In this document: one piece after another, positions 12,596 through 63,883 of the stretch
Position numbering within the stretch: position 1 is the stretch's first letter
Layout of the letters: each line of letters begins with the position of its first letter
NCBI RefSeq assembly: GCF_921293095.1
Contig: NC_060254.1
Location: 4,464,001 to 4,528,000 of the forward strand
Reading direction: 5' to 3'
Length of the DNA: 64,000 nt
From: Ischnura elegans
Taxonomy: Eukaryota; Arthropoda; Insecta; Odonata; Coenagrionidae
Translations under genes and position numbers: made by a program
The notes under the pieces: model-generated
What the model was told of the DNA's origin: nothing
What the model saw: the letters and a program-made list of their open reading frames with translations, nothing else
Database searches by the model: none

Positions 12596-12599
12596 TTAT

Positions 12600-13570: not shown

Positions 13571-13599
13571 TATTTAGGGCGGAACCTTTTCCACTGAAT

Positions 13600-14215
13600 T
13601 TCAATCGTATGCTCCTTATCTTTTATATAATTAACGGAAGGAGGAATATTTCTCGCAGTTTTTCAAAGTAAATTAGTATAGGCATTAGAAACAATTTATC
13701 CCCTACGAAATTAAAGCGGGCCAAACGTTGGCAAAGTCGAATCCATTTCTTCGTAATCAGACATGGCTTAGTCCCAAGAAGATACATTGAATTAATTACA
13801 CACCATTTGTACGTTGAAGATGTTGTTATAACATTGAAATCTAGGCCACAATAACTTTTCTTTTAGCCGTGGAAAATTGCAAGTGTTTATTTCAATATTG
13901 AAAAATTCCGCTCCATCACGTTCGAATCTTCGGATTTTGTTTGTAAATTGAAGTAAGTATATGTTTTAATGTAGAGCGTTTGAAAACCATTAATCATTCT
14001 ACCAAATAAAGTTGTTAAGCATGGAACGGCAACTAAATATTATCTTCCGTACAATGGTTAGAGTTATTTATGAAAGAGGATATTCCAGCGTCACATGCAA
14101 AAGGTTTTGTGCTCTCACTCATACAAAATACTGCATCGAACAAGCAGCTTTGTACGCAGTCACGCGCGCGAGTGCATAGTTAAATACACCAAGTATGATA
14201 TTCGACATGAAAAAA
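13600..14215. other. Intron sequence, nothing recognised
   Basis: AT-rich sequence with no open frame of note and no recognised repeat end. Confidence 0.5.
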
Positions 14216-14221
14216 CCATTT

Positions 14222-14295
14222 GGCTAACCTGGGATTCGAACCCGGATATCCCCGATGGCCGGTCAAATATGCTACCAATTATACAGCGAAGCAAC
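14222..14295 (-). repeat. tRNA-like SINE head
   Basis: The minus strand has an A-box-like TATAATTGGTAGC and a B box GGTTCGAATCC in tRNA spacing, followed by CAGGTTAGCC. Stems are imperfect, so this is a tRNA-derived SINE or pseudogene and not a working tRNA. It shares GACCGG-x-x-ATCGGG with the plus-strand copy 120 bp away. Confidence 0.55.
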
Positions 14296-14335
14296 CTTTT
14301 TACTTGAATATGAGATTCTCTTTTTCCTTGTGTCT

Positions 14336-14413
14336 AAGATTCGCCTAGAAAAAAATTACTTGGTAATGTAACTGACCGGAAATCGGGAGGATCTTGCTTC
14401 GAATCCCGGCTTA
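14336..14413 (+). repeat. tRNA-like SINE head, second copy
   Basis: The plus strand carries TTGGTAATGTAACTGACCGG and CTTCGAATCCCGGCTTAGCG, the same order of A-box and B-box-like parts as the neighbouring minus-strand copy. Divergent, and the acceptor stem does not close. Confidence 0.45.
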
Positions 14414-14419
14414 GCGAAA

Positions 14420-17400
14420 TGTTTTTTTCGTGGCAAATAACAGTCATGGTATATATGTATTCTCATTTATGTTTAATAATAGTGGAGTATAAGAACAAAA
14501 ATTCCCTTCGAAATTTAAAAAATGGGAAACAACAAGTACAAGACCTAACTTCAGTGCAGGGTGCCATCCCGGAAGGGTCATACAGTGTACTGAGGGGTAG
14601 AGAGAAATTGATCTGGTAATGCTCGTGAGAAATTTTAGTTTCTTCCCAATGACTACAACCGCTCTGCGGTGATGTTAGTATCATTTTAAACTGAAGAATT
14701 TATAATGAAATTACATTTAGTTGCCATAAATTTCTAGACGTATTATTATGCCGAAGAATTTCAACAGTTAAATTAAATGAGTCTACCTGATCCTGCGCAC
14801 TAGTATTTCACATGAAGTCTCGCATATTTATATCGCAATGTGGTCGTTTACTCTGACACGAAATCGTAATTTTAGTTAATAATTCGGTCGATGGATGGGT
14901 AAAAAAAACTAACTACCTCGTTCAGTCATTCTCACCAAAATTAGAATTGAAAAATCGCGGAAGTTGCCGCCCACTTCCGAGAAATGTTGCATTCATCATC
15001 AGAGTTTCGGTTCATTACGACCTGTAGTGAGAACCATTCATTGAGAGAATCAGTCGCTCAGAAGAGTGTAAGCAGCACGTGAAACAGGTTTTTGGTGAGA
15101 AATATAACGCGAAGTTAGTTTGCATAATTCACTCGAGCGAAATAAATATCCCACATTCGAGTATTATCCGTGTGTATTGTTTGTTTTCTCGTCACTCCCG
15201 CTACACAAGTAAAATTATTGTCTTATACTTGTAAAACTGGTTCGCAGGTTTATTGGATCTCATGTATCTATTTTTGCTTACAAAAAGCATATTTACGCAA
15301 ATAGGAGATAGTTTACGATTAAATTTGGTCATCTAGACGTCATCGCTGTATTACATCGACCAAACATCAACCCCTGCTTAGTGATACGTTGGTTCAAGTT
15401 CAAATTCTTTCTTTTCGGCGACTCACGTAATAATTAATAATAGTAATTTTAATAATAAGAATATTTTTATAAGAAAATAACTTATCGAAGTTTTCTCCCC
15501 CGGTTGCAAGTTATCGAGAAACATATACGTCGGAAATCGAAGACAAATAAATCAACGTGATACTTTTCATATCGTGTTTTGATGACATAACGGTTACTTT
15601 TGAAAATGTTTAGACACGAAATGAAGGTATGCACAATATATTACCTACTCGGTGAAATATTTATTCTTGGTTAGCGTCGGCAAGAACTTAAAAGGCAATG
15701 GTGTAACCTAGAACCTAACTCATAATGTGCAGTATATTCTCTATATTCATCTTATTTTCAATGCTTGGTTACAAAAAATTAATATATTATAGTCATAGCC
15801 AATACATTATCGAGAAGTAATTAATTTAAAGCAGTTTCTCCCTCTACAGTGTAAATAGCATCTTTTGTTGTAGGTTTGGAATGCCAAAAATAGTTAAAAT
15901 AATTTGATAGACTATTTATTAGCTGCATCACGTTTCTACAGATTATACGTGGATGAAAATACGTGTCTAAAGATATAAAAACTGTTAATAATGTAGCACA
16001 CTTAAAAAGGATTATTCCTAGTACTCCTTTTCTACCTTCCCACAAAATATATGCTTCCTCTTTCCTCCTCAATTGGTTTTCATATTCTTCTTCCTCTTAG
16101 ATTTCCTGTCACTTTCCTTGCATGAGAACAGAAAACTTGAAAAACTCGCGCTCCCCCCCCGTTTCAAACGCACCGCTCGCAACACAACACAGGGCTTCGG
16201 ATTATAAAGAAAAAAAACTGTTGGCCTGCTGGGGTCCGACGATGGGTGAGAGACGAGAAAGGAGGGGACACAAGAGACGTTGGAGGGGAAGTAGTGAGAG
16301 AGACTGCAGTGGGGTGGGAAGCTCTTTCCTCGAGAGTGGGGGATCACACAGCAGCGCCATGGAAGAAAAGATCGTAAGCGCTTGACGTTGAGAAAACATG
16401 CTCTGGAATTTGAGCTACAGCATAGTTATTACCAAGATGAGATTCATGAAACGTATCTTATTTCCAAGAAGAAGGATGAATGTTCTCATCTACCGAAAAA
16501 AAAAATTCAAATCGCGTTGTCTACGTGGTAGAATTACATCGAGAAAACAGGCGTTTTATGGTGTTTTTGAGCGACAAAAACTAAATAACAAATGCTTTTC
16601 AAAATTTTCTTTTTCACTAGCCGAGAACAATAATCTTAGCTTAAACCATATCCAAAACAAGTTCTCTCCAGAGTGTATAATAAGCGAGCAAATGGCGAGC
16701 AAACTGAAGTCTGCAGAGCCGTTTTTCGCGGACGTATAGAACACCCTTAATATTATTTTCACATCTCAGTTGACCCCACTTACCCCACTACTTGAGGGTA
16801 ACTGGATCACCCCATGGCAAATCCCATTTGAGCACTGCCACAATTATTTTGGATAACTGGATCTATCAAAGTACTTTAAATTATCAGAAAAAATATTGGT
16901 TAACACAGCTATTTTGATTATTATGAATGTAAAGGCCGTTGTATCAGAACGGTTACGGAGACCTCACGGATTTCCCTTTCAAAACACAAACACCAGAGGC
17001 GGACTCTGCCAAGTCGAACATTCTGAGTTAGTGCTTCAGAGATTTCAATCGGTGGGGTGAATTCTCAGCTGAAAAATGCGCAGTAAATTCTCGGTGAAGC
17101 TTCATTCAATTCACTGCAATATTCATGAACTCTTCCGCGCATTCTTACATTATTAGATATAAAATCAATAAACATTAATATAGTCTAAGAGTTGCATCTC
17201 GAGCATTGCCAATCAAAATGCGTAACATTATTCCCCGAATTGACCGATCGCATGGATTCAGGAAAGTATGGTATCTCAGCGCTACATTACTAAACTGAAT
17301 ACTTAAATTGATTCATTATGTTATACTGCGATCTAAGGGCCCATAGTTTGCATTGTCTACTTGCCTTTAATCATTATATCTTCTGCCTTTTATATACTAC

Positions 17401-19830
17401 GTAGATTGACGAATCTGGTGGTTTCACTGTCACAGTTAATACATGCACAAGGGGTTTCAAGGATTACGAGCAAATAACACAAAAAAATACCAGTAAATCA
17501 CTATATTCTTAGACACATTCACACGCACATACACTCAATCTTTCACGCACACAAACATACTTTCATTCTCTCATATCTCAATAAAATGATGTGAAAATAT
17601 AATCATTTGAATAATTACTTCGCTGGAAACATCGAAGAGTATTTCAAATGCACGAAGCTAATAAAAAGTGAGCTTTTATTCAGCCAACTCCATCATTAAC
17701 TTGCAACAAAGTTAGTGGGGAAAAGCTTTCAATAACGCAGTATTCATTTACATTGGCACACAATATGAGAGAACGAGAAAAATCAGCTTAATAAAATCTT
17801 TGCAAAATACAACACGGTAAATCAGTCGCCAGAAACATGTAAACAAGTACGCAATTAATATCGTGTGTCAACTTTTTCTTCACTTTTTCGCATCGTTCAT
17901 TGCTAACACTCAAAATTTCAATGCCTTCACGTGGGTGTCAACTAATTCTTTTCCGCAATAAAGATTTCTGCTCGTACTTCATTTTCTTTTAATTCCACAG
18001 ATGGAAATGTTCAAACTTAAGGATACAATTTCTAATGTTTGAAAGTCGGAGTTGGGGTGCGTATGGAGTGTAACAAGCTGTACCCTACAGGAGTGAGCGC
18101 AACCACTTCCATTGCTAGAACTGCAAATTTTCACGTTGATTGGTGAACTGGGATTTATAAGCGATTTTTCTACAGAAATAAATGAAAATTCCTTCGAGGA
18201 ATGATAAAAAAAATGGGTCACTTTATTTTGTTTAGCACGTAAAAATCTCGATAACTATTCGATATTTTTTCTGCCATTGGGTATAAGAGCGAATATCTAC
18301 TTCATCGCGCTCTCCATTCAAAAATTGATGTAATCACTTGAAATACGGTTATCACTTACGTAAGTACGGATTTTCGTAAGTCGAGACATACGTAACTCGG
18401 GGGATGCCTGCAGTTAATTTAGATAATTAATTAAGCGTGTACATAGTGGAAATACGGTTTGAGACATAATTTTTGCCGTCATAGGTTATCGGGCGATTGA
18501 CTTCCAGGTAGAAGGTCTACACTAAAGCCTTCAAGGTTTCGGTATTCATGGGGGAGAAATGGAGCGGTGGCTGAGTTGCGTATGAATAGCATAAACACAT
18601 AAAAGGGTCCGCTACAGAGTCTCAAACACAATGACTTCATTCCCTCCCAGCAGTCGTAGGCACTCTGCATCTGAAGTATACAGTGCAGCAGTTGCCCAGC
18701 AGTTGTTTCGATAGAGCCATACAGTGTAAAAACCAAGAGAACAATGGAAAAAAATAGGAATGCGGATAGAAAAATCAAGAAGTTATCAAGAAAAACCATA
18801 AACCAAGAAGAGAAATTGAAAGAGGTCAATTTCTTTGAAAATTGAGAGTGTCAAAGCGATATTGCGTGGAAGTTTAAACTCACGATGCTTTATTCTGAAT
18901 AAAGACAAAGTTAAACATCAGTGACCTCAGCCGTACCAACTTCAACCAAGCGGTCAACACTTACGGAAAGTTCATCGTGAATCGAGCCACTTCCTCGTGG
19001 TGAGTTCTGGGTAGTTTCTTCACGATACTAACAGAGAGCTACTCAGTGTAATGCTTGGTGTTCAGGTTCTGTTCTTTCTCAGCCTTGGTTGAATTTCTTG
19101 TTTTAAATAGCTCCACAGGTACGTAATTCGTCATTATGATTGATGATAATTTAAAATAATTCACCTTATTTTTACTTTTTGTGGGATTATTAACTACCAT
19201 ATGAAGACTTGCTAAAAACTTAAATTCAATCGAAATAAATATCATTTTAACTGCGATTTAGCCCCCAAAATGGAATTTTAGAAACGTATGCAAAAATGAG
19301 TTTTGTTTTGCGGGTGGTCTATACTACAATTTTGTTGTTAATTCATAGACATTGTTTGAACCATATATTTTGTCAAATAAACTTCAAATTTCATTTTTAT
19401 AAACTATAAACATGTATACACTCTTTGATATTATCCATTATCCCATATTTTCATTAAATTCGTCTTCACAGCCGTTTTATTCTGAAATCAGCCTGATTTT
19501 TCACAAAATTTTAAACTTTAGAGCTCGGGCGGCAGTGGTTAATATTATCCGATTTGAAAAAAAATTTGTGTGCGAGATCCTTATATCATTTCGCAACTTT
19601 CCCGCACAGGGCAAATTTGATCAGGAAAAAAAATCTTTTTTCGGCCTACCCTAATGCACAGTCCTCATCAAGTATAGCTTACGGAGATGGAATGATTTAT
19701 AGGGAGGTGTTTTTCAGGTTCTGATGCATCACTTTAAAGCATGTACAGTCCTCATCAAGAGTTATTTATCACTATCCAAAACCAAACCATTAACCCAACT
19801 GCCCTGACCTGCAGAGCAACGCTCGACCGC
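14420..19830. other. Intron sequence with no recognised gene
   Basis: Scattered open frames below 120 codons have no domain I can name. The right end of the possible TTAA element is at 16746. 16.75-19.83 kb shows nothing beyond AT-rich and purine-rich tracts. Confidence 0.45.
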
Positions 19831-20499
19831 AAAATACCGTATATCTCAGAATATAGTCCCCCTCTGAATATAGTCCCCCCCCCAATTTTGAGACCTCGGT
19901 TTTGGGAAAAATTTTAAAATGCAAAGGAAGGCAATTTTTCTGTGGTTAGCAAGTTAAGATTCTAGAGTCGATAAAAACCATTATTTTCTGTGAAGATTAA
20001 GAACAAATCTGTTCACATATTTTCCATCACAACAAAATAACTATACCTAAAACATGTTGTGATCCATTGCATGTATCAGTAATTTATAGTTCCTTAACCA
20101 GATGTAATGAAGAAATGAGAAAATGTTTTAAGTATCCAAGGCTATTGTATTTTTTAAACATTCACAAATTATTAATATTTTTGATTTCGAAATGACTACA
20201 AACAATGTCAATATATAAGCTTTAACTTAAATCCCATAAACAGTATAGCATTTGGCCCTGAAACTTCCTTAGATCCAGTGTAACACACCCATCAAGTCAT
20301 CACAAATCCAAGTGACCTGAAGAATTTAGGAAATCTAAATAAAATTGTGTTAAATAAATTATAAACATTATAAAAATATTGCCATCAAATGCCTGCTAAG
20401 CAAAATAATTAAACTACAGGACTTACAAATATCAAAGTAATAAAATTTAGAAATAAACTTTTTCCAACAAACGTTAAAACTGAAAAAAATATTATATAA

Positions 20500-20760
20500 A
20501 TTTTCAATGCCTCGTCGCGAATCATTGCATAAGTTACACAAAGAGCTTCTGCTCTGCATTTGCGCACAAATTCGATGATATTTTCCTCTAATTCTTTGAA
20601 TCTGCCGCATCGAGACCCCCGAAATGACTTCCGCGATGTATTAGCACTTTGCAAGCGCTGTGAATACTATGATTTACGGCGTATTATGCAACGGCTATTT
20701 TTAAATTGGCATCGAAACTCCGTCTTTGATGGCCTCTAATCTGCCGCAGGATTGATCCTC
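20500..20760 (-). pseudogene. pogo-type DNA-binding region in U1
   Basis: The minus strand encodes KSFRGSRCGRFKELEENIIE, then FVRKCRAEALCVTYAMIRDE ALKI after it. This is the CENP-B-type helix-turn-helix pattern found in the N-terminal half of pogo/POGK-like transposases. Further upstream, in another frame, is the RRSFDANLKIAVAEYA type motif that normally precedes it (clearer in U2). A frameshift separates the two motifs. Confidence 0.65.
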
Positions 20761-21108
20761 ATCTTTCTACTTGATCCATCACCTCACTGTTGAACGTAAA
20801 ATTATTTTTAATAAAGAAAATATCGCGGAAATAATTGCGAAACGTTATGTGACGTAATTTATCGATCCTACTTACCCTGGCGAATTGAAGATATTCCTCA
20901 ATAAATTGATCACACTTTCAATGCTGAGTGGCTGGATTTCGATCAAATGCAGTAATGCCGGTGCTTTTGGTTTAAAGTCGTCGATTATTGCACCTTTTCA
21001 GAAACAAATGCATCACCTACAGTGCAACCTCGATATAACGACACCCCACGGTGCACTAATTAACACTCGCTATAGCGAATTGTCGCTTTACCGGAGGTGG
21101 AGCAAATA

Positions 21109-22923
21109 CCGTATATCTCCGAATATAGTCCCCCCTTTTTTTCCAAAAATGGCCACGGAAAAGTAAGGGGGGGGGGACTATAATCGAGTGTAATCCAATT
21201 TAGCATACTAAAGGTGACCATAAAGTAATAAATAACGGCATAATGGCTAATGTTCTCGTAGTCTTTCTATTTGAGTATATTTATGAGGATTATAATCGGA
21301 GATATTAGTAAATACTGCCACGTTTTACTGGAAATTAAGACAATTTTTACCACAAATGTTGTACAGATACGATTATTCCGATTCAAATAGCATATCGAAT
21401 ATGCGTTTTCACGGAATCCATCGGGTAGCCGCTAATTTTTCTTGGAAAAGTATTGTTAGAATAATTCAATCGACACTGATCACTTAATGACGCAAAACAG
21501 TAAATAATTAAAATGAAAACTAAACACACACTATCATTACATTAATCGAACACTAGAATTGAATCAGTAGTATATGTACCCGTCACTCATTTAATAACTA
21601 CACGATTTAAATAATTGCGAAAAATAAACAGATAAAGTGAACCCGATTTAGCATTTCATTGCGTCCGTAGCTACTATACGTCCGTGCGGTTCGTGTTTAC
21701 AACCACTGCCTTTACCGCCTTCATAGAACAAGAATGCGCAATAGGTGATGCATTTGTTTCTGAAAAGGCGCAATAATCGACGACTTTAAACCAGAAGCGC
21801 CGGCATTACTGCATTTGATCGAAATACAGCGACTCAGCATCGAAATTGTAATCAATTTATTGAGGAATATCTTCAATTCGTCAGGGTAAATAGGATCGAT
21901 AAATTACATTGCATAACGTTTCGCAATTATTTCCGCGATATTTTCTTTATTAAAAATAATTTTACGTTCAACAGTGAGGTGATGGATCAAGTAGAAAGAT
22001 GAGGATCAATCTTGCCGCAGATTAGAGGCCTTCAAAGACGGAGTTTCGATGCCAATTTAAAAATAGCCGTTGCAGAATACGCCGTAAATCATAGTATTTA
22101 CAGCGCTAGCAAAGCGCTAATACATCGCGGAAGTCATTTCGGGGGTCTCGATGCGGCAGATTCAAAGAATTAGAGGAAAATATCGTCGAATTTGTGCGCA
22201 AATGCAGAGCAGAAGCTCTTTGTGTAACTTATGCAATGATTCGCGACGAGGCATTGAAAATTGATATAATTTTTTTCAGTTTTAATGTTTGTTGGAAAAA
22301 GTTTATTTCTTAATTTTATTACTTTGATATTTGTAAGTCCTGTAGTTTAATTGTTTTGCTTAGCAGGCATTTGATAGCAATATTTTTATAATATTTATAA
22401 TTTATTTAACACAATTTTATTTAGATTTCCTAAATTCTTCAGGTCACTTGGATTTGTGATGACTTGATGGGTGTGTTACACTGGATCTAAGGAAGTTTCA
22501 GGGCCAAATGCTATACTGTTTATGGGCTTTAAGTTAAAGCTTATATATTGACATTGTCTGTAGTCATTTGGAAATCAAAAATATTAATAATTTGTGAAGG
22601 TTTAAAAAATACAATAGCCTTGGATACTTAAAAAAATTTCTCATTTCTTCATTACATCTGGTTAAGGAACTATAAATTACTGATACATGCAATGGATCAC
22701 AACGTGTTTTAGGTATAGTTATTTTGTTGTGATGGAAAATATGCGAACAGATTTGTTCTTAATCTTCACAGAAAATAATAGTTTTTATCGAATCTAGAAT
22801 CTTAACTTGCTAACCACAGAAAAATTGCCTTCCTTTACATTTTAAAATTTTTCCCAAAACTGAGGTCTCAAAATTGGGGGGGGGGACTATATTCGGGGGG
22901 GGACTATATTCGGAGATATACGG
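21109..22923 (-). mobile_element. Element U2, complete pogo-like copy inside C
   Basis: A complete 1815-bp copy running from CCGTATATCTCCG at 21109 to GGAGATATACGG at 22923, flanked by TA at 21107-21108 and 22924-22925. It is the inverse of U1, so the two copies form inverted repeats: 19837-21019 pairs with about 21744-22923 (1.18 kb) and 21109-21743 pairs with about 23405-24047 (0.64 kb). It shares the same non-autonomous internal structure as U1. Confidence 0.85.
22020..22272 (+). pseudogene. pogo-type DNA-binding region in U2
   Basis: Plus-strand translation shows RRSFDANLKIAVAEYAVNHS, then after a frame change SRKSFRGSRCGRFKELEENI and VEFVRKCRAEALCVTYAMIR. The order is that of the paired helix-turn-helix domains of pogo/POGK-like transposases. 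The catalytic DDE domain is absent. Confidence 0.68.
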
Positions 22924-24085
22924 TAATAGCCAATATACCTGTTGCGAACAGATATACAGGAACAGGAGTGGTGCGGTGACAGATAAACGTAAGCATAAAT
23001 CCAGACGAAAGGCGATGTTTTTTTTGAATCACTTAATTTCCTTACTCAAATAACGACTAACTATTCAAACAATTTATAAACGTCGCACTGAATAAAAATC
23101 ATGCAAAGCATTGTTTCGTCAATCATTATATTTATCGAACGACAGTTTACCACATAATTTTGAGACTGAGCACTCCATTAACTTCATTTCTAAGAGATCG
23201 CTAGCAGTTACAGAGGTTAAGGAGTCTTGATGAAAGTCTTCCGGCGGTGAAACCCTCGCTATGGTGAGAGCCAACACCGAAAGGGTCTCGTAAAAACGAA
23301 TTTTTAACACGCTTATTATAGGGTCAATTGACGGTGCATTGGCTATCTCTCGTAATAACGGTGGTGTCGCTATAGCCCGTACTCGCTTTAACGAGGTTCC
23401 ACTGTATTGCGCATTCTTGTTCTGTGAAAGCGGTAAAGGCAGTGGTTGTAAACACGAACCGCACGGACGTATAGCAGCTACGGACGCAATGAAATGCTAA
23501 ATCGTCACGAAAGGTTCACTTTATCTGTTTATTTTTTGCAATTATTTAAATCGCGTAACTATTAAATGAGCGACGGGTACATATACTATTGATTCAATTC
23601 CAGTGTTCGATTGATGTAATGATAGTGTGTGTTTAGTTTTCATTTTAATTATTTACTGTTTTGCGTCATTAAGTGATCAGTGTCGATTGAATTATTCTAA
23701 CAATACTTTTCCAAGAAAAATTAACGGCTACCCGATGGATTCCATGAAAACGCATATTCGATATGCTATTTGAATCGGAAGAATCGTATCTTTACAACAT
23801 TTGTGGTAAAAATTGTCTAAATTTCCGGTAAAACGTGGCAGTATTTACTAATATCTCCGATTATAATCCTCATAAATATACTCAAATAGAAAGACTACGA
23901 GAACATTAGCCTTTATGCCGTTATTTATAACTTTATGGTCACCTTTAGTATGCTAAACTGGATTACACTCGATTATAGTCCCCCCCCCCTTACTTTTCCG
24001 CGGCCATTTTTGGAAAAAAAGGGGGGACTATATTCGGAGATATACGGTATACCCCATCGAGCCAACTATGTACACACACACTTAC

Positions 24086-24250
24086 ACCTCTCAAAATTGA
24101 CAGCTGAGGACCGTAGAGTTCTTGCAGCATCAGGTGAGACGTGCTGAGCGTTTGGCTCACATTCTTGCCAGCTGAACTCCCACCATCTTTATCCTTGATG
24201 GAGCAGTAGCCATCAATGGCAGCCTGATAATTTTTCTCCTCAAATTTCAC
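24086..24250 (-). CDS. Exon C: linker of dsRNA-binding protein
   Basis: A 165-bp, 55-codon exon with an ATGGCAG acceptor and a GTAAGT donor, both in phase 0. It encodes VKFEEKNYQAAIDGYCSIKD at the start and SHLMLQELYGPQLSILRG at the end. I see no named domain; by position it links the two dsRNA-binding domains, and the last residues (LMLQELYG) may be the helix that begins the C-terminal one. The donor is only 36 bp from the end of a nested transposon (U1, ending 24049), which is unusually close for a large inverted-repeat element. A longer open frame that runs on into the intron exists but is not supported by the splice signals. Confidence 0.82.
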
Positions 24251-24556
24251 CTGCCATAATAAAAATAAAAGTAATGATAACCAAGGAAAAGACCATCGTC
24301 CAGAAAGTCACTGAGGAATAAAACATCAGGTTCACACTCATTCCAACAGCACAACTGAATAAATAGCATAACAGAATAACATGACTTGAATAGAATAGCA
24401 AGAAAAATGTGGACAGATATGAAAGCACGTCACCCAAACTCTCCAATTGCAAGGTACATAACGTACATAAGAAACGTACATAAAACGAGGAAGAGGCAGG
24501 AGAGAATTAACATTAATCTTCACAATAAACACATTGAAAAACTTAGAAATTACGTC

Positions 24557-25265
24557 AGCAGACTCCCGATTATCCGGCTACGGTTTATCCGGGTTCCGGA
24601 TTATCCGTACATGTTTTCACTCTCGCTCAATTCTTCTGCGATCTTTATAAAAAAATAAAACTGAACATAAAATCACCAGAATCACTCCATTATAATATGT
24701 ACCAGGATACACTGCAGTCATTATATCCCTTCGTAAAACGGAAGCAATCAGACCCAAGCTGCATCCACGGGAGCACCGTGTTCCTGTTTTCCAAGCCTCA
24801 CAGAGTATGACCGCACTCCATGATCACGGACACATGTCCCGCAGCAGTTGCAACGCGGGCAACTTGTGCGAGACGCGACTACGTCGCATGGTGCCTGACA
24901 GTGTAGTTTCCGACGTCGAGCAGTGGTTTTGAAGCATTCGTTCAAACCACTTTTCTGTATCTGACATCATGCACCCACGGATGTGTGGTTTTCGAAACCA
25001 GGCCTTAGATGGAGCATTAATAATACGAGTAAAACCATGTTATCGCCACTAAAAAGACCACGAACTGGCAAAGAAAGCTCTCAATGAGTCCGTTAAGCAC
25101 TCTTAAATAACAGAATAACTGCATAAATAATAATGTATTGTTTGTTTTACGTAAATTGTGAACACTACAAAACATTTAAGAGAAAGTTTTGATTATCCGT
25201 GTTTTCCGATTATTAGTGCCGTCCCTCCCCATCACATCATTAGCCCATTCGGATCATCGGGAGTG
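24557..25265. mobile_element. pogo/Tigger-like MITE with CTCCCGAT ends
   Basis: AGACTCCCGATTATCCG at 24560 is mirrored by CGGATCATCGGGAGTG ending at 25265. The about 700 bp between are non-coding. The termini resemble Tigger-type MITEs, but the last few bases and the TA duplication are degenerate on the left. Confidence 0.55.
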
Positions 25266-25843
25266 TATTAGGAAACAGCTGTATGGAATGTTTTCTACAT
25301 CTTCCTTCATCAAAAATGTATGGACACCTTACAGTCAAATACCTGATTGAAACTGATGGTGCAATAGCAGCTATACTAGACAGGCTTATCAGCACAAAAA
25401 ATCATGGAAAATTTATAATGAAGGATATAATCGCATAACAAAATGTGAAACAATTGAGCATATAATCGCGTTACGCACACTGAAATTTTTTCAGGTACAA
25501 AAAGGTCACTCCTTCAAAATATTTTTCATTCTTTCCTACTCGTCAGCTTCATAATACGATCCTCTGAACATATGAAACCTCCCAAGATATTGCCGATGTG
25601 ATCATCTTTTTTGACAATGAGTCAGTCAGTGTTTGCAGTTTTTTATACATCGATATACAAGGTGAGACTGAGCAATAGCCGTTTATCTGTAGATATTCCT
25701 TAAACTATCTTACTACTAATGCTAAAATTCAGGCAATTGGTGCATTTTTAATTGCTTATAAGGGTACCAAACGAGCCATACTAGGAAGGAATCTGAGTGA
25801 GCCCAGATGAGAGGTTGAGCTAACATGGATTGCCACAGTTATA

Positions 25844-28570
25844 CCGTATAAGCGTGTGTAAGAGGCGCACCCCTATTTTGAGCATCAAAGCTATGAAGAA
25901 AAAAAATTTTGCAACATTTTTTAATACTATCCCGCGGTGTTGCAGACGTATATTCGATAACTGTCGAAATTCCAGTACGCCTGGAATTTCGACAGTTATC
26001 GAATTTTCCTCTTTCAATATTAATTGAAAGAGGAAATTTTGATAACTGCGGCGGTAATAGTGGCATAAGAGAGAGTAGAAAGAGTTTCGATCCTCTCTTA
26101 GCATACGCCGTTGCTCTACGATGCTTGTCCTATTCACGAACAATTTAGTTTAAATGCTCTCGCAGGAGTACTGCAATAGAATTGCAGCCGTGAAAATTTT
26201 AAGGCAATACACGACAGGCACATAGCATGAACCTTCCCAAGAGCTTGGACAACAATCGGGGCAATCTCAGCGCCATATGATAATAACCACATCGTAAATT
26301 TAACGGAACCACACTCGGCCCTCCATCAGCCAATGCCTCTGCCGTTTTTTTTCCTTTCCGAGACCCCACAGGAAAATAGGAAAACATCAAGTTACAGGGG
26401 AACAATCGAAACGTGTTTCATCCCTTCCCCGTCTCACCAACTGACCTTGATCGATCTCCCAGTTTATGGAGGCCAAAAGGCCAAAGGTGAGTCATCTACT
26501 GAGCCTGAAGATACCTCGATAGCTTTCAATAATTGAATGACACTCACGAGGTTCAAAAAAAGAAAGAGATCTAACGCGACGCATATCTGACAGAATTTAA
26601 GTTTTTTAAGCTCTAATTGTTTGACACAAAGATTTATAGTTACAACAAGACTACTAATATTCAAAATACAGGTGGTCCTCGACTTTCGTACACTCGACTT
26701 TCGTACAATCGCCACTTTCGTACGTCCAAAAGTGACACCTTTTACTCGACTTTCGTACGCTAAATTCGGACTTTCGAATGCTGGTCTGTAATTTTTTTAA
26801 AATTCCCGCTATGTTTATTGCGCATCCCAACATTCAATTGTTTCAAATTGCAGTATCGGCAGTATATGCGAACAATATGAACGTATATAATGAAGGGAAT
26901 TGTTGGTAATTGACTCTGATCTAGGTGATTTATTTGGGAGAGAGACTGCCTGCTATAGGCTCCTTTATCAAGAGAAGAGGAAAGCCTTCATTGAAGATAT
27001 TTTTCAAAAGACGTTGACTAGACATCATCGAATAGCTTTCAATAAAACTAGTAAGACCTTCTTTCTAATTGTGTTTTTCCGTTTGAGTGCTGTTTAATTC
27101 ATGTAAACCTTCAGCAACGATATTGCACGACATATCACCCGAATTCCGTTTGTCTTTTGTCTTTTTTGAATAACATGCAGAACATACGCGATCACGAATG
27201 TCACCTGCCAAACATCGAATTTTGGTGTAAAAATTAAAAGGTATCCAGAGTGCGGGTTCAACGAATACATTTTTTTATGCTACTTGATACGTCCTTTTAT
27301 TTATAGTGGACGTAATAAGTGGAATGTCAACTTAAACGCCAAGAGGAAGTTTCACTCGATAGCCAACGGAGTTCTTGTTTTTTAAACTTATATTTGCATT
27401 TTCTGCGTATTTTCGAAATAAATTATATGATTTGAGGAGTTTTATTAATATATTATTAAAATTAAGTCAATTGAAATGAATTCCGTGAAAAAAAAGTTTT
27501 AATACGTAAATTCCGCTCTTTTGGAACGTAACCCCTAATTAGTATGGAAGTCAATGGTTCGACTTTCGTACAATTCGACTTTCGTACAAGTTTTCGGGAA
27601 CGCATTGTGTACGAAAGTCGGGGACCGCCTGTAGTCCAAACAGGACAATTTCGGAAGAAACAAGAGTAGCATAAGCGCATTCAAACAAGACGAGACGGAC
27701 TGGAAACTTCAGGCAACGCAAACTGCGTATATCATATTGCTGCCCCTTCGCCCCTTTGCTTTGAAGACAACGACGTCACATGCAAGATCGGACGTGTTCT
27801 TCCCGTGCTCCTTCACTCATAGCCTCGTAGCTTGAAATACGGAGGGGAGGGAGCACGCGCGCTCCTTCCCCTCCGTATTTCGTTGCTTGCTTCGAAGACA
27901 GAGGGATCGCGCTCCTTCCCCTGGACCTCTCCTTCCGCGCTCCTCACTTATAAGCATTCCTGATTTCTTCCATCCACAATTTAGTCCAACAATGAACACA
28001 CTCGTTCGAATTTTTTAAAGCGCAGGTTTTGATACCAATATAATTTTCAGTTGCAATAATCCTCATATTAGCGTCTGCAGATGATTTTTGAAAAATCATG
28101 TGCTCAGCGTAATGGCAAGACAGATGCTGACTATTAACCAGGTATGTCCTTCAACACTACGCGTTTCTCTACGTTTGATAAGCGATTACTATGGGCAGTA
28201 TAAATGCCGTGGGATGCCCACTCGTGGCAGTAAATTTTGCGTGCCCTCCGGAGCGAAAAACCCTGCGCGATCTTCCATGTTCACCTCTGGGGTACCGACG
28301 TGACGGCGTAATGCTTACAAGAAATTCAAACAGGAGCATTTTAAAAATACGTTACTAAGGGAGTAACTCCCCTGCCTGCCGCTTGTTTTTGACCTAGGGA
28401 TTCAGATGACCGACTCACACTGAAAACCAAGGCCACTCAGTTCCCCTTAGACTTGCGACCGGTGAAGGGGAGGGGGGGGGGAAGATAAGAAGTTTGTGTA
28501 AGAGGCGAACCCTCATTTTCGGCTGCAATTTCTGGGAAAAAAGGTGCGCCTCTTACACGCACTTATACGG
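25844..28570. mobile_element. Element V1, TA-flanked DNA transposon, carries MITE P
   Basis: Ends are CCGTATAAGCGTGTGTAAGA and its inverse ...CGCACTTATACGG, with TA on both sides (25842-25843, 28571-28572). Just inside the left end is a hairpin (GTCGAAATTCCAG/CTGGAATTTCGAC, 25960-26045). After removing P (26669-27631) it is about 1.76 kb and aligns in opposite orientation to V3 (51357-53286). No transposase was recognised. The CCGTATA start, pyrimidine/purine-biased TIR and TA target recall U, suggesting the same broad superfamily. Confidence 0.75.
26669..27631. mobile_element. MITE P, TA-flanked, inserted in V1
   Basis: CAGGTGGTCCTCGACTTTCG on the left and CGAAAGTCGGGGACCGCCTG on the right are imperfect inverted repeats, flanked by TA. 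CGACTTTCGTAC is repeated several times beside both ends. V3 has the corresponding sequence uninterrupted near 52203-52220 (minus strand), which confirms the insertion point. No coding capacity was recognised. Confidence 0.8.
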
Positions 28571-28572
28571 TA

Positions 28573-29310
28573 TTTCGTTTAATTTGACTGTACAGCAAAA
28601 TATACTTCTAGTGCAACAATACACCCCCGCAATACGAAGTGGGGAATGGAAGTGAATAACCGTGAAAAGCTATTGCACACAACTCAATCACACATACAGA
28701 CATGATTTGGAGTGAAATAATTAATGAATGCCATTTCAAGCTCCCAAGTATGTTTGCAAAGGCAGTGCTTAATTTCAATGTTCCCCTACTCGGGTAGTCA
28801 TCCCACCACAGGGATGGAATACATTCTCCATTTATTTTTCATTTTTAGCAATTGCCATAGCGAAGGAAACATTCATGAACAGGAAAGAGAGCATCATTAC
28901 GTATGAGTAAAAAGAAAAGTCTAGCGAAGGGAGCACAGCACAATTCAGAGCCAAAGCATGGTCTACACTTGGGAAGGAGGAAAGGAAAAGACCTGAGGGA
29001 TTTGGGTTCAGGGGAGAACTGAGACGATGATGCTGACGAAGACTGACCACAAAGTGCTGGACATGGGGGTGAGGAGAGAAAGCTTAAGATACGGAGGAGA
29101 TGGAAGGGGTGGATGTAGGGAGTACTGAGTGGGGAGGGGATGTTGAAAACAGCGTTAGATTAGGGGAGAGTGTTAGACAAGCAAGAAAGGGGAAGAAAGA
29201 GATTAGGATTAATCGCTGGAATGAAATAAAGTAGGCCTCGTAGAGAAGCGGAGAGGGAAGTCGAACTTGGGATGGGACTTGCCACGCTATTCTCATATTG
29301 ATCCATGTTG
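28573..29310. other. Intron sequence, nothing recognised
   Basis: Purine-rich in 28.9-29.2 kb. No domain or repeat boundary recognised before the MITE at 29313. Confidence 0.45.
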
Positions 29311-29312
29311 TA

Positions 29313-30322
29313 CAGTAGACTCTCGTTAATATGAACATCGTTATTACAAAGTTCTTGTTATTACGAAGCAAGTCGTTGGTCCCGACGAAAAGGCCTACCC
29401 AATCTAATGTAAAATAAAAATTAATAAGAAATCTTCATTATTTTGAAAATACGAATCTGATCCGGTCCTGGCAATTACAAAATGAACTTTATTACGAAGT
29501 TCCACTAGTAGTAGGCAACGGCATTTAGGTGGAAATAGACTACGCTACTTTATCATCATTGCACTACATTTAAATTCTCCTTGTGCATTGTGCCCAAGAG
29601 CGTCAATTATGGTACTTCATTCAGTAGGAGATATGTACTTCAGTATGCACGCAACATCAGATACTAAGCTTCATTCCTGTGGAATTATGGTGACCCACTC
29701 ATTAATGCTCGCAAATTGGACGTCCAGTTAGTCCTCTTCCTACGCACATTGGATTTATGAACTTTCAGAGATATGACGTTTAAAAAAATTCAAGAGTGCC
29801 CAAAATTTAAAATTTGGTGCCTATGGAGTTCGCCGATGCGACACGACATGATGTACAGGAACTCGCACTTTGGGCTGAACAAAGTATCATTTAATCTGGT
29901 TTGAAGTCAGGAACTGTTCAGCGCTTCGCCCGTTCTTTCTTCCCGCACAAAGCGAATTTTTTCGGCACCGGCTACATTGCAAGCTAGATCAGTTGGTCAC
30001 AATCGTGAGTTAACGCACGATTGTGATGCAGTGTTGCATTCTGCAAGATCTCTCGATGCCTTGTATAGGTTTATCAACTTAAAGAGCAAGGTCTCGGAAC
30101 GCATCTTCTTCGTATATCGAGGACTTGTGCATAATTTAATCGCGTACATTACACACTTGACTCTGAAGATTATAAGTTTAGGAGATTGAAGAGACAAGAA
30201 ATTTTGACAAAGTATGTTTTTTTTTATTCGATGATTCCTAAAAGAAACATTCATACGAACTTCGTTATTACGAACCTCTGCTTTTTCAGTCCCGTGAATG
30301 TCGTAATAACGAGAGTCTTCTG
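29313..30322. mobile_element. pogo/Tigger-like MITE with CTCTCGTTA ends
   Basis: CAGTAGACTCTCGTTAATA at 29313 and TAACGAGAGTCTTCTG ending at 30322 are inverted repeats flanked by TA. The interior repeats ATTACGAA-type motifs near both ends. About 1.0 kb, with no transposase. A shortened relative follows at 30893-31395. Confidence 0.75.
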
Positions 30323-30462
30323 TAGTCTACATAAAATGGAATAGCTAGAATACTTTACTAGATAACCGAGTATCAGATAAAAATTTAATAAATTTGAGTC
30401 ATCTAAACTATTTAATTGAGTGGCACAATAGGTATGGAGACCAGTAAAAAGGATGCACTAAC

Positions 30463-30590
30463 CTTCTCAGCTTGCTTCACCGTTCTCGTCTCACTGATCA
30501 AAGGTGAGGCCATGGCCAGATGTTCCCTTATCTTGTCAATCATCAGCTTGGCAGAAATTTGTTTGGCTTGCTTTTTTGTGCGAGCCTTCC
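30463..30590 (-). CDS. Exon B: second half of dsRNA-binding domain
   Basis: A 128-bp exon between a GCTTCCAG acceptor and a GTTAGT donor. With the base carried over from exon A it encodes 43 residues that start GKARTKKQAKQ and continue into ISAKLMIDKI. This is the conserved loop, lysine-rich N-terminus and helix 2 of a dsRNA-binding motif; the KK-x-AK lysines are the ones that contact the RNA backbone in this fold. The junction with exon A falls between strand 3 and helix 2. A pogo-like MITE (29313-30322) lies 140 bp past the donor, and oppositely oriented copies of repeat V lie on either side of the exon (V1 at 25.8-28.6 kb, V2 at 31.7-36.0 kb). Confidence 0.88.
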
Positions 30591-30892
30591 CTGGAAGCAA
30601 AATCATAATTCCATGACTTTTACACTCAAACATCATCATCATAACAAACATCCGTTCCACAAAACACCTCTGCACAGCAAATATACATCATGGCCCCAAT
30701 CACCCTCTCATGAACCACACCTCTTCCCAAAAAGCATTTCTGTGCATAAAAATTAATTGGTGGCACACACAAGATTTTTCACCTGTTTAGAACAAAATAC
30801 ATAGCAAGATTTGGTCACTGACATTCCCAATTATGCCATCACAGAGCACAATGCCGAAGAGTAGCTAAAGAAATATGAAACGAACGATATGA

Positions 30893-31395
30893 TACATTAA
30901 TGCGAACAACCTTATTACCAAGTTTTCATTATTAGTACAGTCTGAACAAAGTATCAATTAATCCATCATGAATTTAAGAACTGTTCAGCATTTCACCCAT
31001 TTTTCCTTCCCCACTGATGGCAAATTTTTTTCGGCTCCAGCCACGTCGCACGAGCAGCTAGATCAGTTTGTCACCATCATGAGTCTATGCAAAATTGTAT
31101 TGCAGTGTTGCATTATGCAGGTTAACCAAACTTTTCAATGCCTTGCATAGGTTAATCCATTTATGAACAAGGTCTCGGAACAGACTTTGTGCGAAATTCA
31201 GTCGTCTAATTTTAAACACTTGGCTCTTAAGCTATTCCGCAGTGCAACTATAAGTACGGGATATTAAAGAGACAAGGAATTTTGGCACAGTATGTTTCTT
31301 TGAGATGATTCCTGAAAGAATCATAATTACAAACTCCATTATTACGCACCTATGGTTATCGGTCCCACGAACTTTGTAACAAAGAAAGTCTCCTA
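30893..31395. repeat. Degenerate second copy of the 29313 MITE
   Basis: The stretch from GAACAAAGTATCAATTAATC onward matches 29878-30322 in the same orientation, including TGCAGTGTTGCATT and AAGGTCTCGGAAC. Its right end, AAGAAAGTCTCCTATA, is a decayed terminus and the left half is mostly deleted. Confidence 0.6.
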
Positions 31396-32323
31396 TAATT
31401 CCTTTTTCATTCCTGTGATTTGAATGGTGTTGAAGGCCATTAAAAATGCACATATCCAGGAAAAAACATTTGAATTTTTTTCATGGGAATTTTGGAAAAA
31501 TTCCTCACTTTAGCTGCTGCTTGTTGCAATGTAGCTTGATTTAACTCACTCCCAATAATTGGCCAGGACATATGAGCCAAAATATTTTCTGTACAGCAAA
31601 CAATGAGTTTTTATTGCCTTAGAATTAGTAAGCTATACAGCAAACACTTCCATGCAAAAAGAAATTTTTAGTCCCGAAAAGTCTGTTTTAAAGATATACT
31701 ACTGTATAAGCCCGTGTAAGAGGCACACCTTTGAGGCAAGTGATTTATGGTCTGTGGCATCTCGGAAAGGAAAAAAAATCAGAGGCATTGGCTGATGGAG
31801 GGCCGAGTGTGGTTCCATGAAATACGGCACTGAGATTCCCCCAATTGTCGCTCAATCTCTTGGGAAGATTCAAGCTATGTGCCTGCCGTGTTTTGCCTTA
31901 AAAATTTCCACCGCTGCAATACTCCTAAGAAGGTGTTTAACAGGTTGACTGCCGTGGCGGACACCGGTGTCCGCTGTGGTATCTTCTTCTCCCGCCGTGG
32001 CGGTCACCGGTGTCCGCGGAAAAAAGTTCGTCTTCGTGCGCCGGGTGACCGCCATTTACGTACTTTTGCATAGATATCTTTTCCGCAACGGCCTCAGCTA
32101 AACTGTCACTCCTTTGGTTTTTGCTAATTGTTTATAAAATTTTTTTTGCTGTCTTGAATGTTACTTACGTATTTTTTTATACCGGTTGGCACATTGGAAG
32201 CCGTTATCCCTCGAAGTAGACCTCCGGAGACGCTTTTTCCGTGTTAAATGTTTCATAAACTACGATGTTGTATGAGCAGGGAGTACTTACTCTTTGTTCG
32301 TAATCCAGGGCTGCTATATATAC

Positions 32324-32365
32324 ATTAAATCTGAAAGCATACTATAGTATGCTTTCAGATTTAAT
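32324..32365. repeat. 42-bp perfect palindrome in piggyBac 1
   Basis: The sequence reads identically on both strands about the centre 32344/32345 (half: ATAGTATGCTTTCAGATTTA plus T). It lies in the non-coding left part of the element, beyond the transposase stop codon. Confidence 0.9.
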
Positions 32366-32682
32366 TGAGAAAGAATATATATCTTCTTTGGGAGACGAAT
32401 TATATTTTCTACTCAGTGTTTTGCATCCTTCAGATAGTTTCAACTGGTAAACACATCTATAAAAAGAAATTGAAGAGAAGGATAACAAAATCTTTCCCAG
32501 CTTTACCTTATAATTCAAATTAACTTTACCGCAGTAATTTTGTAGGTCTTTAGAGCCCTCCTCTCACCGACATTTATTCTTACTTTCCCTTGCTCCTGAA
32601 ATATCAGAAAGGTGAAATAAATAATATATATCCTTTTCAAATAATCACTTTTTATTGCAATAATGGACAATTATTCATATTT

Positions 32683-34446
32683 TTACAGATGATGTTTATG
32701 AAAGCAATCCAAACAGAACCGTGGCTTTTTAGGGCAGTCATCACAGTAGGTAGTGACTTTTTTCACTTTGTTTTTTTCAATTTCCCCAAGTTGTTTCTTT
32801 TCGTAGCATCCTCGGCAATATTTCCGATTGATTCGCGCACCTCCTTCCTCCTTTTTGAATGAATGAGTAGCCATTCTTTTCCGTGATGTTTGTGGCAATG
32901 TAAGACTGGTCGGAGATCTATCGCCCTGTGACTCATTTCCCAAAAGCGATCCGATAAGGTTTTCCCTGAATTTTACTATCTGCATCTTACTGCCACAAAT
33001 TTGGTTGAAAATGAAATAAGCATTCACCACAGAAGTCCCTAATAATAGTTCTAACGCTACTTTTCTGTACCATTTCAAAGACCGACGCAATGGCGTTGAA
33101 TAAGAGGAAAGTTGATCAGAAAGGTCTATGGATGATTTCCCCTCATTATACTTCAGGATAGCTACTGGTTTCAAAACCCTTGACCTATATTTTTCCACTT
33201 CCTCCATCTCGTTTGAGTGGCATGTTGACAATAGCAAAACATCGCGTTTATCTTTCCACTTCATTATTGACACACCTCTTTGATTTTCTTTGACTACTAT
33301 TTCCCCTTTCTTAAGTTTTTTGGCCGTTACATCTTTGGGTATTCCCCTCCGATTTTTACGCAGGGTACCTAGTAAATGTGTCCTACGATCAAGAAGTGAA
33401 TTGGCCAACTCTAAGCTCGTGTAATAATTGTCTGTAACAATCGTTCTGCCAGCATCTAGTAACTTCTCGGAGAGCTGCATAACTACAGCTGTTGGAACAG
33501 ATCGCCTGGCATCGCGCTCACGTCCTGCATAAATTTTCATATTCCATACATAGCCCTTACCAGAGCACAATTTAAAAATTTTGACACCGTACTTATGCCT
33601 TTTTTGAGGAATGTACTGTTTTAATGCTAACCTGCCTTGAAATGGAATAATTGATTCGTCAACGCATAAAATTTCCCCAGGTGTATATAATTCCTGATAA
33701 TTACAAATGATTTTATCCAAGAGTGGTTGAATTTTATGCAAACGGTCTTTGTTTGAATTTTCTTCATTATTGGAGAAGTGCAACATCCGTAACAAGAGTT
33801 CAAAACGATTTCTGCTCATGTGAGAAGGAGCTACATCATTACGATATATGAAGTTTTTACTCCAGTAGTCAGAAAGTTTTGGCATTTTTACCACACCCAT
33901 ATAAATCAGAATCCCAAAGAGCTTTTTGATCTCGTGAAGAGTTGTCGGTTTCCAATCTACCACACGAGATTTTCTAGAAGTAGTCAGACCTTTCACTTGA
34001 TTGGCATAAATATTAGTTTGTTCCACTATCATTTCGAGAATTTCATTGTCTATAATGTTAGAAAATATTCCAAAAGGGGAAGGATTACTCATATCTGCAA
34101 CTACAGCACTCAATCCACTCTGCGCCGTAAACTGAAAATTCGGATGATTTTTCACTGGTTCAGTCCAAAAGTCAGATGACGCATTTGGTGATGAGGGCAC
34201 CGGTCTATTTAGCTGCACATTTTCACTCTCACTTAGCTCTCCGTCGGTTGTATCGGAGGTTGCCCCTCGTAGCAATTGTCCATCCTGCAAGGAATCGTCG
34301 CTTGAAGAGTTCACTCTGATGTCCTCATCACTGGAAGGGATATATTCATCATTTCCCGTTACACTTTCAGAATCAGATGACTCTTCTAAGTATTTCCTCT
34401 TAGCCGCTTCAACAATGAATCTGGTCCGCGGGGTGAATTTATCCAT
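32683..34446 (-). CDS. piggyBac transposase 1 (PGBD4-like)
   Basis: A 587-codon intact frame of normal length for the family. It begins with an acidic Ser/Asp-rich segment (to about residue 95), followed by the piggyBac DDE domain. The catalytic aspartates are D263 in CVDESIIPFQGR, D339 in IVTDNYYTS and D441 in SIDLSDQ. The C-terminal cysteine-rich domain is complete: C544, C547, C568, C571, C578, C581 and the final HKHH, which in this family binds the terminal repeats. The enzyme cuts and pastes DNA at TTAA without leaving footprints. The start codon follows an A/T-rich leader, and ATTATATATAGG about 310 bp upstream on the minus strand is a possible TATA box. No frameshift or stop was seen. 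Confidence 0.93.
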   Translation of the reverse strand: MDKFTPRTRFIVEAAKRKYLEESSDSESVTGNDEYIPSSDEDIRVNSSSDDSLQDGQLLRGATSDTTDGELSESENVQLNRPVPSSPNASSDFWTEPVKNHPNFQFTAQSGLSAVVADMSNPSPFGIFSNIIDNEILEMIVEQTNIYANQVKGLTTSRKSRVVDWKPTTLHEIKKLFGILIYMGVVKMPKLSDYWSKNFIYRNDVAPSHMSRNRFELLLRMLHFSNNEENSNKDRLHKIQPLLDKIICNYQELYTPGEILCVDESIIPFQGRLALKQYIPQKRHKYGVKIFKLCSGKGYVWNMKIYAGRERDARRSVPTAVVMQLSEKLLDAGRTIVTDNYYTSLELANSLLDRRTHLLGTLRKNRRGIPKDVTAKKLKKGEIVVKENQRGVSIMKWKDKRDVLLLSTCHSNEMEEVEKYRSRVLKPVAILKYNEGKSSIDLSDQLSSYSTPLRRSLKWYRKVALELLLGTSVVNAYFIFNQICGSKMQIVKFRENLIGSLLGNESQGDRSPTSLTLPQTSRKRMATHSFKKEEGGARINRKYCRGCYEKKQLGEIEKNKVKKVTTYCDDCPKKPRFCLDCFHKHHL

Positions 34447-36632
34447 GTGGAATCACTAATGATGAAAGTAGATTTTGGTTCAACATTTCTTATATAATGA
34501 AAAAGATTATGAAAATATTCCAAAAATATACCAAAAAGTAGAAAAATGCAACTAAATATGTAAACCAATCTTACCAAAAGGACGATGACGCACCAAAGTA
34601 GAATTCAGCGCAGGACGCACAAAGTGGCACCGAGCACTCTTCACATTTCTTCTACTAATCGTATTATAGAAGAAAATGTAGCCTCTTTTCATGTCACTGT
34701 GACAGCACTGATCTTTCGAAACGTTCTGTCGTCTCAAGACATAAAAGCGCCCTATATATAATGCTACGTATACCTTCAACAAGTAGAAAGGGATACATTG
34801 TGTTGATGATGTGATATGAAGTTCCACACAATGATTTACATTAGTCGAATAAAAGAGTTCTCCGTCATAAACATAATAGCACTACATGTAGAAGGAAGGA
34901 GGGTCTCCTGGTATAACTTGTTGTTTAGTGTCTGTGCAGCGCCTACTGGCAGGAACGGACTTGAGTATACGCTAGGGAAGGAGACAAAGTTAGCTCCGCG
35001 GAGGACAGCTGTGTCCGCGGAGGGGGGGCGGACTGGAGAGAAAACTGCTACTAAGAAGTGTAATACTGAATATAAAATGAATGTAGGTGTTATTTATCAC
35101 TACGAATATTTTACTGCACTACAAATGAAGTAATTGCCGTGTTTTCGTAAATTTATAGGTATCCGCCAGCGCATAAGTTGGTGGTCGTGACGCTGACACC
35201 GTGGCGGACACCGGTGTCCGCTAATTAAATTTATCATTAGATAGAAAAAATAATGTTACGTGCAATTTATTTTTTCATTAGCAAAGTTTTACTGCACTAC
35301 AAATGAAGTTATTGCCATATTTTCGTAAATTTGTAGATATCCGCGAGTGCATAAGTTGGTGGTCGTGACTCCGACGCCGTGGCGGACACCGGTGTCTGCT
35401 AATTAAATTTATCATTATAATGAAAAAATTAATGTTATGTGCAATTTAATATTGCTCAACTCTATTAGTCACAATAAACACATTTAAATATTAACTTGGC
35501 CTAAGGGGACATATTTAAAAAAAACCCTCGGCAGTTAACCTGTTAAACAAAATTGTTCGTGAGTAGGACAAGCATGGTAGAGCAACGACGTATGCAAAGA
35601 GACGATAGGAACTCTTTCTAATCCCTCTAATGGGACATTGCAATCATGAAAGCAATGATTTAAAATTTCGGATTCATATTGAATTTCCGACCATACCTAG
35701 TAAGCATCATAAGGTTAAGACTATAAGTGAATACCTACTTATCACCGAGAGCCATAGGTATCATGAAAATTAGGCTGAAAAAATACCGCGAAAATTTTTA
35801 GTACTGAAAGAGGAAATTTTGATAACTGTCGAAAGTCCAGGCATACGTCTGCAACACAAACGATAACACAACAACGATAGGATAAAAAAATGCCGCAAAT
35901 TTTTTTTTCTTCAGCTCCGACGCTCAAAATATGGGTGCGTCTCTTACATGCACTTATACAGTAACAGAATCATACTGAATAACTCAACACACTGCTGCAT
36001 TTTAAGCATGCTGGAGAGCTATCAGATGTGCAAAAAATACACCTGCAGACTGCAGTTGATGACTTGACAGCTTGTCATGGCATTTTGTGCATTTGATCAC
36101 AATTTTTCATTGTTTCTTGTACTCTAGGGATGCGTTCCAAATCACACATCACGTGCATCGATGTGGGCATGCATAGAGCATATTTTGAGGTTCCGGAAGC
36201 ATCAACTCACATTGGCTAGCATCAGAAATTCTTGATGCAGTTGATGCAAAGGCAAGAACGGGCACTGCCCCTAAAATTGTGATGGTGTCTTTGGAGTTAG
36301 CATAGGATGTTTATATTGTGCTCCTAAAGTTTTAGGAAAGAGTTGAAAGAGTTATAGTTATTAGTTTTTGATATAATTAGTCCATCTATAATTGAAAATT
36401 GGGAATTCTATATCGATGCGTTGAAGTGAGCATGTAAGTAACTTGTTTACGCCCATTCTTAATTTCACAGGTAGCAAAGAATGCAATATACAATCTATAA
36501 TTTAACTCATTGAAATGCAAGCGTGGTAGTTTTAACCAAAATTTTGCTTATATACACTAAATTGTGGAAATTTCCAACACTTAAATGTTGTATTGCAAAA
36601 ATATTAGTTTACTAGGGAGTGTTTAGCGGTGT

Positions 36633-63879: not shown

Positions 63880-63883
63880 TTAA

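Follow-up and report, generated by a model that had tools for sequence, protein, structure and literature searches.

A three-level nest of TA-bordered DNA elements in Ischnura elegans, with an uninterrupted counterpart of each layer in the same genome

Positions 19837-24047 of the window, by which we mean the whole 64,000-nucleotide stretch analysed here (C9:4464001-4528000), consist of three cut-and-paste elements stacked as U1{C{U2}}: an element of one family, U1, was split at a TA by an element of a second family, C, which was itself split at a TA by U2, another U copy in inverted orientation. This three-level nest had been proposed from a sequence-only reading, and comparison with the organism's own genome (1.72 Gb, 110 contigs) shows the proposal to be right to the base, with an empty site at each level. 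The element ends, the TA borders, the uninterrupted state of every level, the subfamilies of the two U copies and the flanks shared between copies of the nest were all observed directly. Very probably, these observations reflect three separate TA insertions, stacked one upon the other, and subsequent copying of the segment that carries them, which we regard as the best explanation. The nest is an ordinary and well-documented kind of event, cleanly documented here, and the principle by which nesting orders insertions is already established. It provides a compact case in which each nested layer has an uninterrupted counterpart in the same genome.

The borders of all three elements are exact to the base. 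The left copy of the U1 TA target site (19835..19836) is followed by the left arm of U1 (19837..21019, minus strand), which is 96.2% identical to U2 over 1186 columns and belongs to an older U subfamily; the strand given for the U1 arms is that of weak transposase-like frame pieces. The TA at 21018..21019 is the left copy of the C target site and leads into the left part of C (21020..21106), which starts with CAGTGCAACCTCGATATAACGA and has family copies elsewhere. Next come the left copy of the U2 target site (21107..21108) and U2 itself (21109..22923, plus strand), a complete U copy of 1815 bp that is inverted relative to U1 and belongs to a younger U subfamily. The right copy of the U2 target site (22924..22925), seen in the sequence at the border, precedes the right part of C (22926..23404), which ends with CGAGGTTCCACTG. 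The right copy of the C target site (23405..23406) is evident from the sequence and from the alignment of U1 with U2, and is followed by the right arm of U1 (23407..24047, minus strand; 95.5% identical to U2 over 645 columns) and the right copy of the U1 target site (24048..24049), again seen in the sequence at the border. Over its whole span (21020-23404), C thus runs from CAGTGCAACCTCG at 21020 to CGAGGTTCCACTG at 23404 with a TA on each side, while U runs from CCGTATATCTCC to GGAGATATACGG between TAs, the left end of U1 in the window differing by one base.

In line with the earlier expectation that the two arms of U1 would align throughout with the reverse complement of U2, alignment of 19835-21019 plus 23407-24050 with the reverse complement of 21107-22926 covered both arms end to end, with 1755 of 1818 aligned columns identical, 63 mismatches and 13 gap letters. 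The region contains inverted-repeat arms of 621, 553, 538 and 100 nt at 94-97% identity; as the sequence-only reading had recognised, these overlapping inverted repeats arise because U1 and U2 are mutually inverted. Allowing at most three mismatches, the U end CCGTATATCTCCGAATATAG matches the window four times, where shuffled sequence would give 0.01. When U2 and the two parts of C were used as queries against the window, no additional copy came to light.

The uninterrupted state of each target site is preserved elsewhere in the genome. For U1, a probe of its right flank (window 24052-25300) detected five copies of the nest at 98-100% and, at 95%, seven sister segments that lack U1, three on C9 and four on C6; all seven are continuous across the predicted target, GCAAAATATACCCC. 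For C, the target within U is unbroken in every one of the 42 other U copies checked, five of them copies of U2 and 37 others. The sequence-only reading had pointed to GCGCAATAGGTGATGC as the uninterrupted C entry site, and this sequence is exact in 40 of the 42 and altered by one base in the remaining two, which are also uninterrupted. Among 12 U1-like copies, eight have the exact site and four align in one piece across it. Finally, all 20 solo C copies that were read run unbroken through the U2 target (18 match the pattern used exactly and two carry substitutions), and the uninterrupted form occurs at 2,371 places in the genome within three mismatches. The presence of an empty site at each level supports the nested order U1, C, U2.

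The nest in the window (copy A, C9:4483837) is one of five, the others lying at C9:4612715 (B), C9:4758802 (C), C9:4897075 (E) and C6:91612522 (D). The duplicated segment that carries it spans at least 16747..34800, the right limit being set by the sequence compared, and is homologous to the sequences from C9:4609626 and C9:4755713 onward, so that copy A is 99.6% identical to copies B and C over at least about 18 kb, from a point 3.1 kb beyond U1. Copy D matches copy A piecewise at 98.1-99.8%, with extra inserts between the matching pieces, and copy E is 98.7% identical to copy A over the 4.5 kb read, with flanks in common over 175 and 107 bases outside U1. A 1.2-kb right flank of U1 is common to all five. 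On C9, nest and sister segments alternate at a spacing of 57-80 kb; on C6, one nest copy lies amid four sister segments. Arrays of two segment types occupy C9:4.49-4.90 Mb and C6:91.50-91.77 Mb, with 12 copies by one flank probe. The U1 left arm of copy D holds two inserts that none of A, B, C and E has: one of 2,114 bp, with ends GGGGTCTATTCTC and a 4-bp overlap at the junction, and one of 4,318 bp with TA borders, in which one frame piece matches DDE_1 (E 4.8e-27).

U is a multicopy family with solo copies elsewhere in the genome. A search with U2, in which the best 40 of 988 candidates were scored, yielded 37 complete or nearly complete U copies outside the nest, all of which were fetched; a search centred on U1 gave 1,536 candidates, and 12 of the 36 non-nest places listed were used as a U1-like sample. 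In a tree with these 12 U1-like and 37 U2-like copies, U1 and U2 fall into separate clades, and thus represent different U subfamilies; U2 carries an 8-bp deletion that most of the sampled copies do not have. The distance to the respective majority is 0.71-2.39% for the U1-like and 0.22-0.88% for the U2-like copies, both ranges being biased downward because copies were chosen by similarity to the query.

The substitution clocks give no ordering that matches the nesting. Stems up to the split of the nest copies measure 0.0050 for U1 and 0.0037 for U2, and the differences that are fixed in the five nest copies and absent from the other samples number 4/1822 in U1, 5/1803 in U2 and 5/567 in C. 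In number of private differences, U1 and U2 (4 versus 5) are indistinguishable (Fisher p = 0.75); the count for C nominally exceeds that of U1 (p = 0.04), and its excess over U2 is not clear (p = 0.066). The insertion order therefore rests on the nesting and on the empty sites. An apparent excess of private substitutions in U1 (34/1821, versus 5/1803 in U2, p = 2e-6) was rejected: U1 had been compared with the wrong subfamily, and the contrast of 34 versus 5 vanished when U1 was rescored against the 12 U1-like copies. Dating U1 against the wrong subfamily is thus a trap that suggests a false age gap. The claim of the sequence-only reading that one family inserted both before and after C holds in that both elements are U and that nesting supplies the chronology; it needs amending in that two subfamilies are involved and that C and U2 could have arrived together. 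So amended, the nest gives a relative order for two U subfamilies around one C insertion.

The U searches also gave several separate observations. At one place (L051), two U copies lie in inverted orientation about 100 bp apart. At two others (L056 and L057), the U alignments both stop at the same TA (U position 1609), beyond which two different sequences start (CACCCATGTCTCG and CAGTAGAACCCCG), as if cut by other elements. The U end had no match in viral contigs; among genome contigs, a single match, the exact 20-base U end, was found in a metagenome-assembled gammaproteobacterial contig (L009:4038-4057), perhaps by chance or through eukaryote contamination.

C is an abundant, non-autonomous family that also has solo copies elsewhere in the genome. 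A genome search with its right part, in which the best 40 of 1,304 candidates were scored, returned the five nest copies and 35 others, 20 of which were fetched. Without U2, C measures 568 bp, in keeping with the range of about 568-583 bp for C copies. Its ends, CAGTGCAACCTCG and CAGTGGAACCTCG, form CAGTG... inverted repeats, and CAGTGnAACCTCG is a Tigger-like sequence. All 20 solo copies have a TA next to the right end, and all but L069 also have one next to the left end (19 of 20). The longest frame piece of C (94 aa), the only one scanned, had no Pfam match.

Could U2 have been inside C before C reached U1, the two moving once as a 2.4-kb composite by means of the ends of C? The intact ends of C and the clean TA borders of the composite are what such an arrival would leave, and the substitution clocks are compatible with it. 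A genome-wide search with the right U/C junction, a pattern expected to catch U either way round because the U ends are inverted repeats, gave seven places within three mismatches: the five nests, C12:37841372 and C19:113872407. At the place on C12, of which both ends and 211 U bases were read, a C{U} composite with its own TA borders does exist, with U at the same TA of C and in the same orientation as in the nest, and with other flanks. However, it is not a close relative of the nest's C{U2}: wherever the nest C has a fixed departure from the majority, the C on C12 keeps the majority state, and its U, in the part read, has neither the 8-bp deletion of U2 nor two of the U2 stem states, differences that mark it as a separate insertion. 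On C19, the right side shows 80% identity across 255 columns, and no left end of C appeared at the position inspected. With five of the seven junctions belonging to the nest itself and no donor or sister of C{U2} seen among them, joint arrival seems to us unlikely; C{U2} as a mobile unit gained no support from this genome-wide search and the two extra junctions read in part. Sequential insertion in place is the simplest account. A further U in C, at another TA, was seen at L049.

The number of nest copies raises the separate question of whether the nest as a whole has moved. Five copies on two contigs might be taken for a composite transposon mobilised by the outer ends of U1, and tallying nest copies alone would indeed set this trap. 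Yet the sequence beyond U1 is common to the copies on the sides read, making the copying unit larger than U1, and none of the five shows a fresh TA duplication in unrelated flanks, so that mobilisation through the ends of U1 is highly improbable. Nor do U and C form a fixed composite unit, since the five nests share their outer flanks and both families occur solo elsewhere. Because flanks beyond the U1 ends are common to the copies, the five are, on the sequence compared, one nest multiplied by segmental duplication as a passenger of its segment. We also considered a mis-joining of inverted copies during assembly, given that a 200-N gap lies about 3.4 kb from the nest in the C6 copy. Such an artefact can be given almost no credence, as the U1/C left and U2/C right junctions are free of mismatches in all five copies, the borders are TA throughout, and the sister segments carry the empty site.

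Having set these alternatives beside stacked insertion in place, we propose the following sequence of events. U1, of an older subfamily of the non-autonomous family U, would have landed in one of the units of a duplicated stretch of chromosome, after which the 568-bp C would have entered a TA of U1. U2, of a younger subfamily, would then have entered C in inverted orientation, at a TA that suits the preference of U and lies close to the left end of C, C presumably being already inside U1 when U2 arrived. The finished nest would have spread with the segment, of which at least five nest-bearing copies now exist, four of them on C9 and one on C6; in the C6 copy, two more elements have landed in U1. 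Transposase would have been supplied in trans, probably by Tigger/pogo-type enzymes.

The choice of target may also have contributed to the nesting. At the 32 U copies for which a single-TA target was extracted, A at -3, A at -2 and T at +4 each occur in 23/32, giving a palindromic preference, AAnTAnTT. By motif score, the U2 site comes third among the 49 TAs that lie within C or next to it; relative to the TAs of the window it stands at the 95th percentile, and the U1 site at the 84.6th. U hit the same TA of another C copy independently on C12 and probably did so on C19, and all three U-in-C events (nest, C12, C19) apparently share one orientation. Such repeated use is partly attributable to the fit of the site to the U motif. 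We entertain, at somewhat below even weight, the idea that one C TA might be a recurrent U landing site (in the nest, on C12 and, in diverged form, on C19), with nesting directed by AAnTAnTT together with the sequence of C rather than random. For 2,374 C copies and an assumed 1,500 U copies (the first searches gave 988 and 1,536 candidates), 0.028 U hits would be expected at this TA, or 0.19 with the motif preference, whose factor of 6.7 is a conversion of the motif score for a TA chosen after being seen. With 6,000 U copies and the preference, 0.76 would be expected, and three hits would then be unstriking (P 0.04). C in turn may reuse its TA in U, as suggested by two candidate C-in-U junctions with one mismatch outside the nest (C5:99799255 and C13:16947258; 0.14 expected by a uniform-base estimate). 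Two more junctions have two mismatches and 16 have three, numbers near chance (cumulative expectations 2.0 and 16.6). From the repeated use of one C TA, a test could be built of how a TA-specific element chooses its targets.

The window also holds other elements. A piggyBac-like element at 31937-35546 is bordered by TTAA, has inverted ends CAGGTTGACT/CAGGTTAACT and contains an open frame of 587 aa (32683-34446, minus strand; DDE_Tnp_1_7, E 1.6e-93), and the C6 segment copy has its uninterrupted TTAA site. A second piggyBac-like element (61248-63883) also lies between TTAA borders; its ends, CACGTTGCGT, are inverted, and its open frame measures 577 aa (61413-63146, minus strand; DDE_Tnp_1_7, E 1.2e-82). 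The segment copy in the window further holds, at 9548-16746, a 7.2-kb insert with TTAA borders and ends GGGTGTTCTAT in inverted orientation, which B, C and D lack. Finally, 3827-7734 holds a frame with a PHD-finger match followed by an endonuclease/reverse transcriptase frame of non-LTR retrotransposon type.

Regarding identity, U and C are non-autonomous TA-target elements. In each of the five nest copies, U1 and U2 are flanked on either side by the TA duplication of U; among the U2-like copies, the left TA is present in 37/37, and in 25/37 the alignment reaches the final base of the right end, with the right TA there. The terminal inverted repeats of U2 are identical over 29 nt at both ends, TA included. 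Frame pieces of U gave an HTH_Tnp_Tc5-like match (E 0.0045 in U2, 22110-22310, plus strand; E 0.0031 in U1) and a BrkDBD-like match (E 0.025 in U2, 22003-22170, plus strand), all below curated cut-offs. The two pieces lie on one strand in a plausible order and in different frames, the frame difference recurring in 3/3 other copies examined. Ten more U2 frame pieces compared with Pfam gave no transposase domain and an implausible RAMP match at E 0.011, which places the BrkDBD match at chance level and leaves the HTH match suggestive only; a search of solved structures with the HTH piece gave no hit. No DDE domain was found in 16 of the 18 U2 frame pieces of at least 40 aa (the other two being 40 and 43 aa) or in one U1 piece, so U is at most a non-autonomous derivative and not a complete Tigger. 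The nest region has no ORF of at least 100 aa, and the frame pieces scanned identified no transposase gene for U or C. A Tigger/pogo affinity of both families is thus plausible but weakly supported.

Tigger/pogo transposons and their non-autonomous derivatives have, in the parts of the literature available to us, TA target duplications and short terminal inverted repeats (PMC9219625, PMC7325037). U and C resemble them in their TA targets and short inverted repeats, and U additionally in its weak match to a Tc5/CENP-B-type DNA-binding domain. They differ from the elements described there in that both lack a catalytic DDE match and a long open frame, and in that the domain matches of U fall below Pfam cut-offs and lie near the level that chance produced elsewhere in U (PMC9219625, PMC7325037). 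As for the ordering of events, insertions of elements into elements are used to order transposon activity in the Transpositions in Transpositions (TinT) approach (PMC3014933). As in TinT, the nested elements described here yield an order of activity; whereas the part of that work available to us concerns retroposons and is genome-wide, the present case is a single locus with three layers of DNA elements and an empty site for each (PMC3014933).
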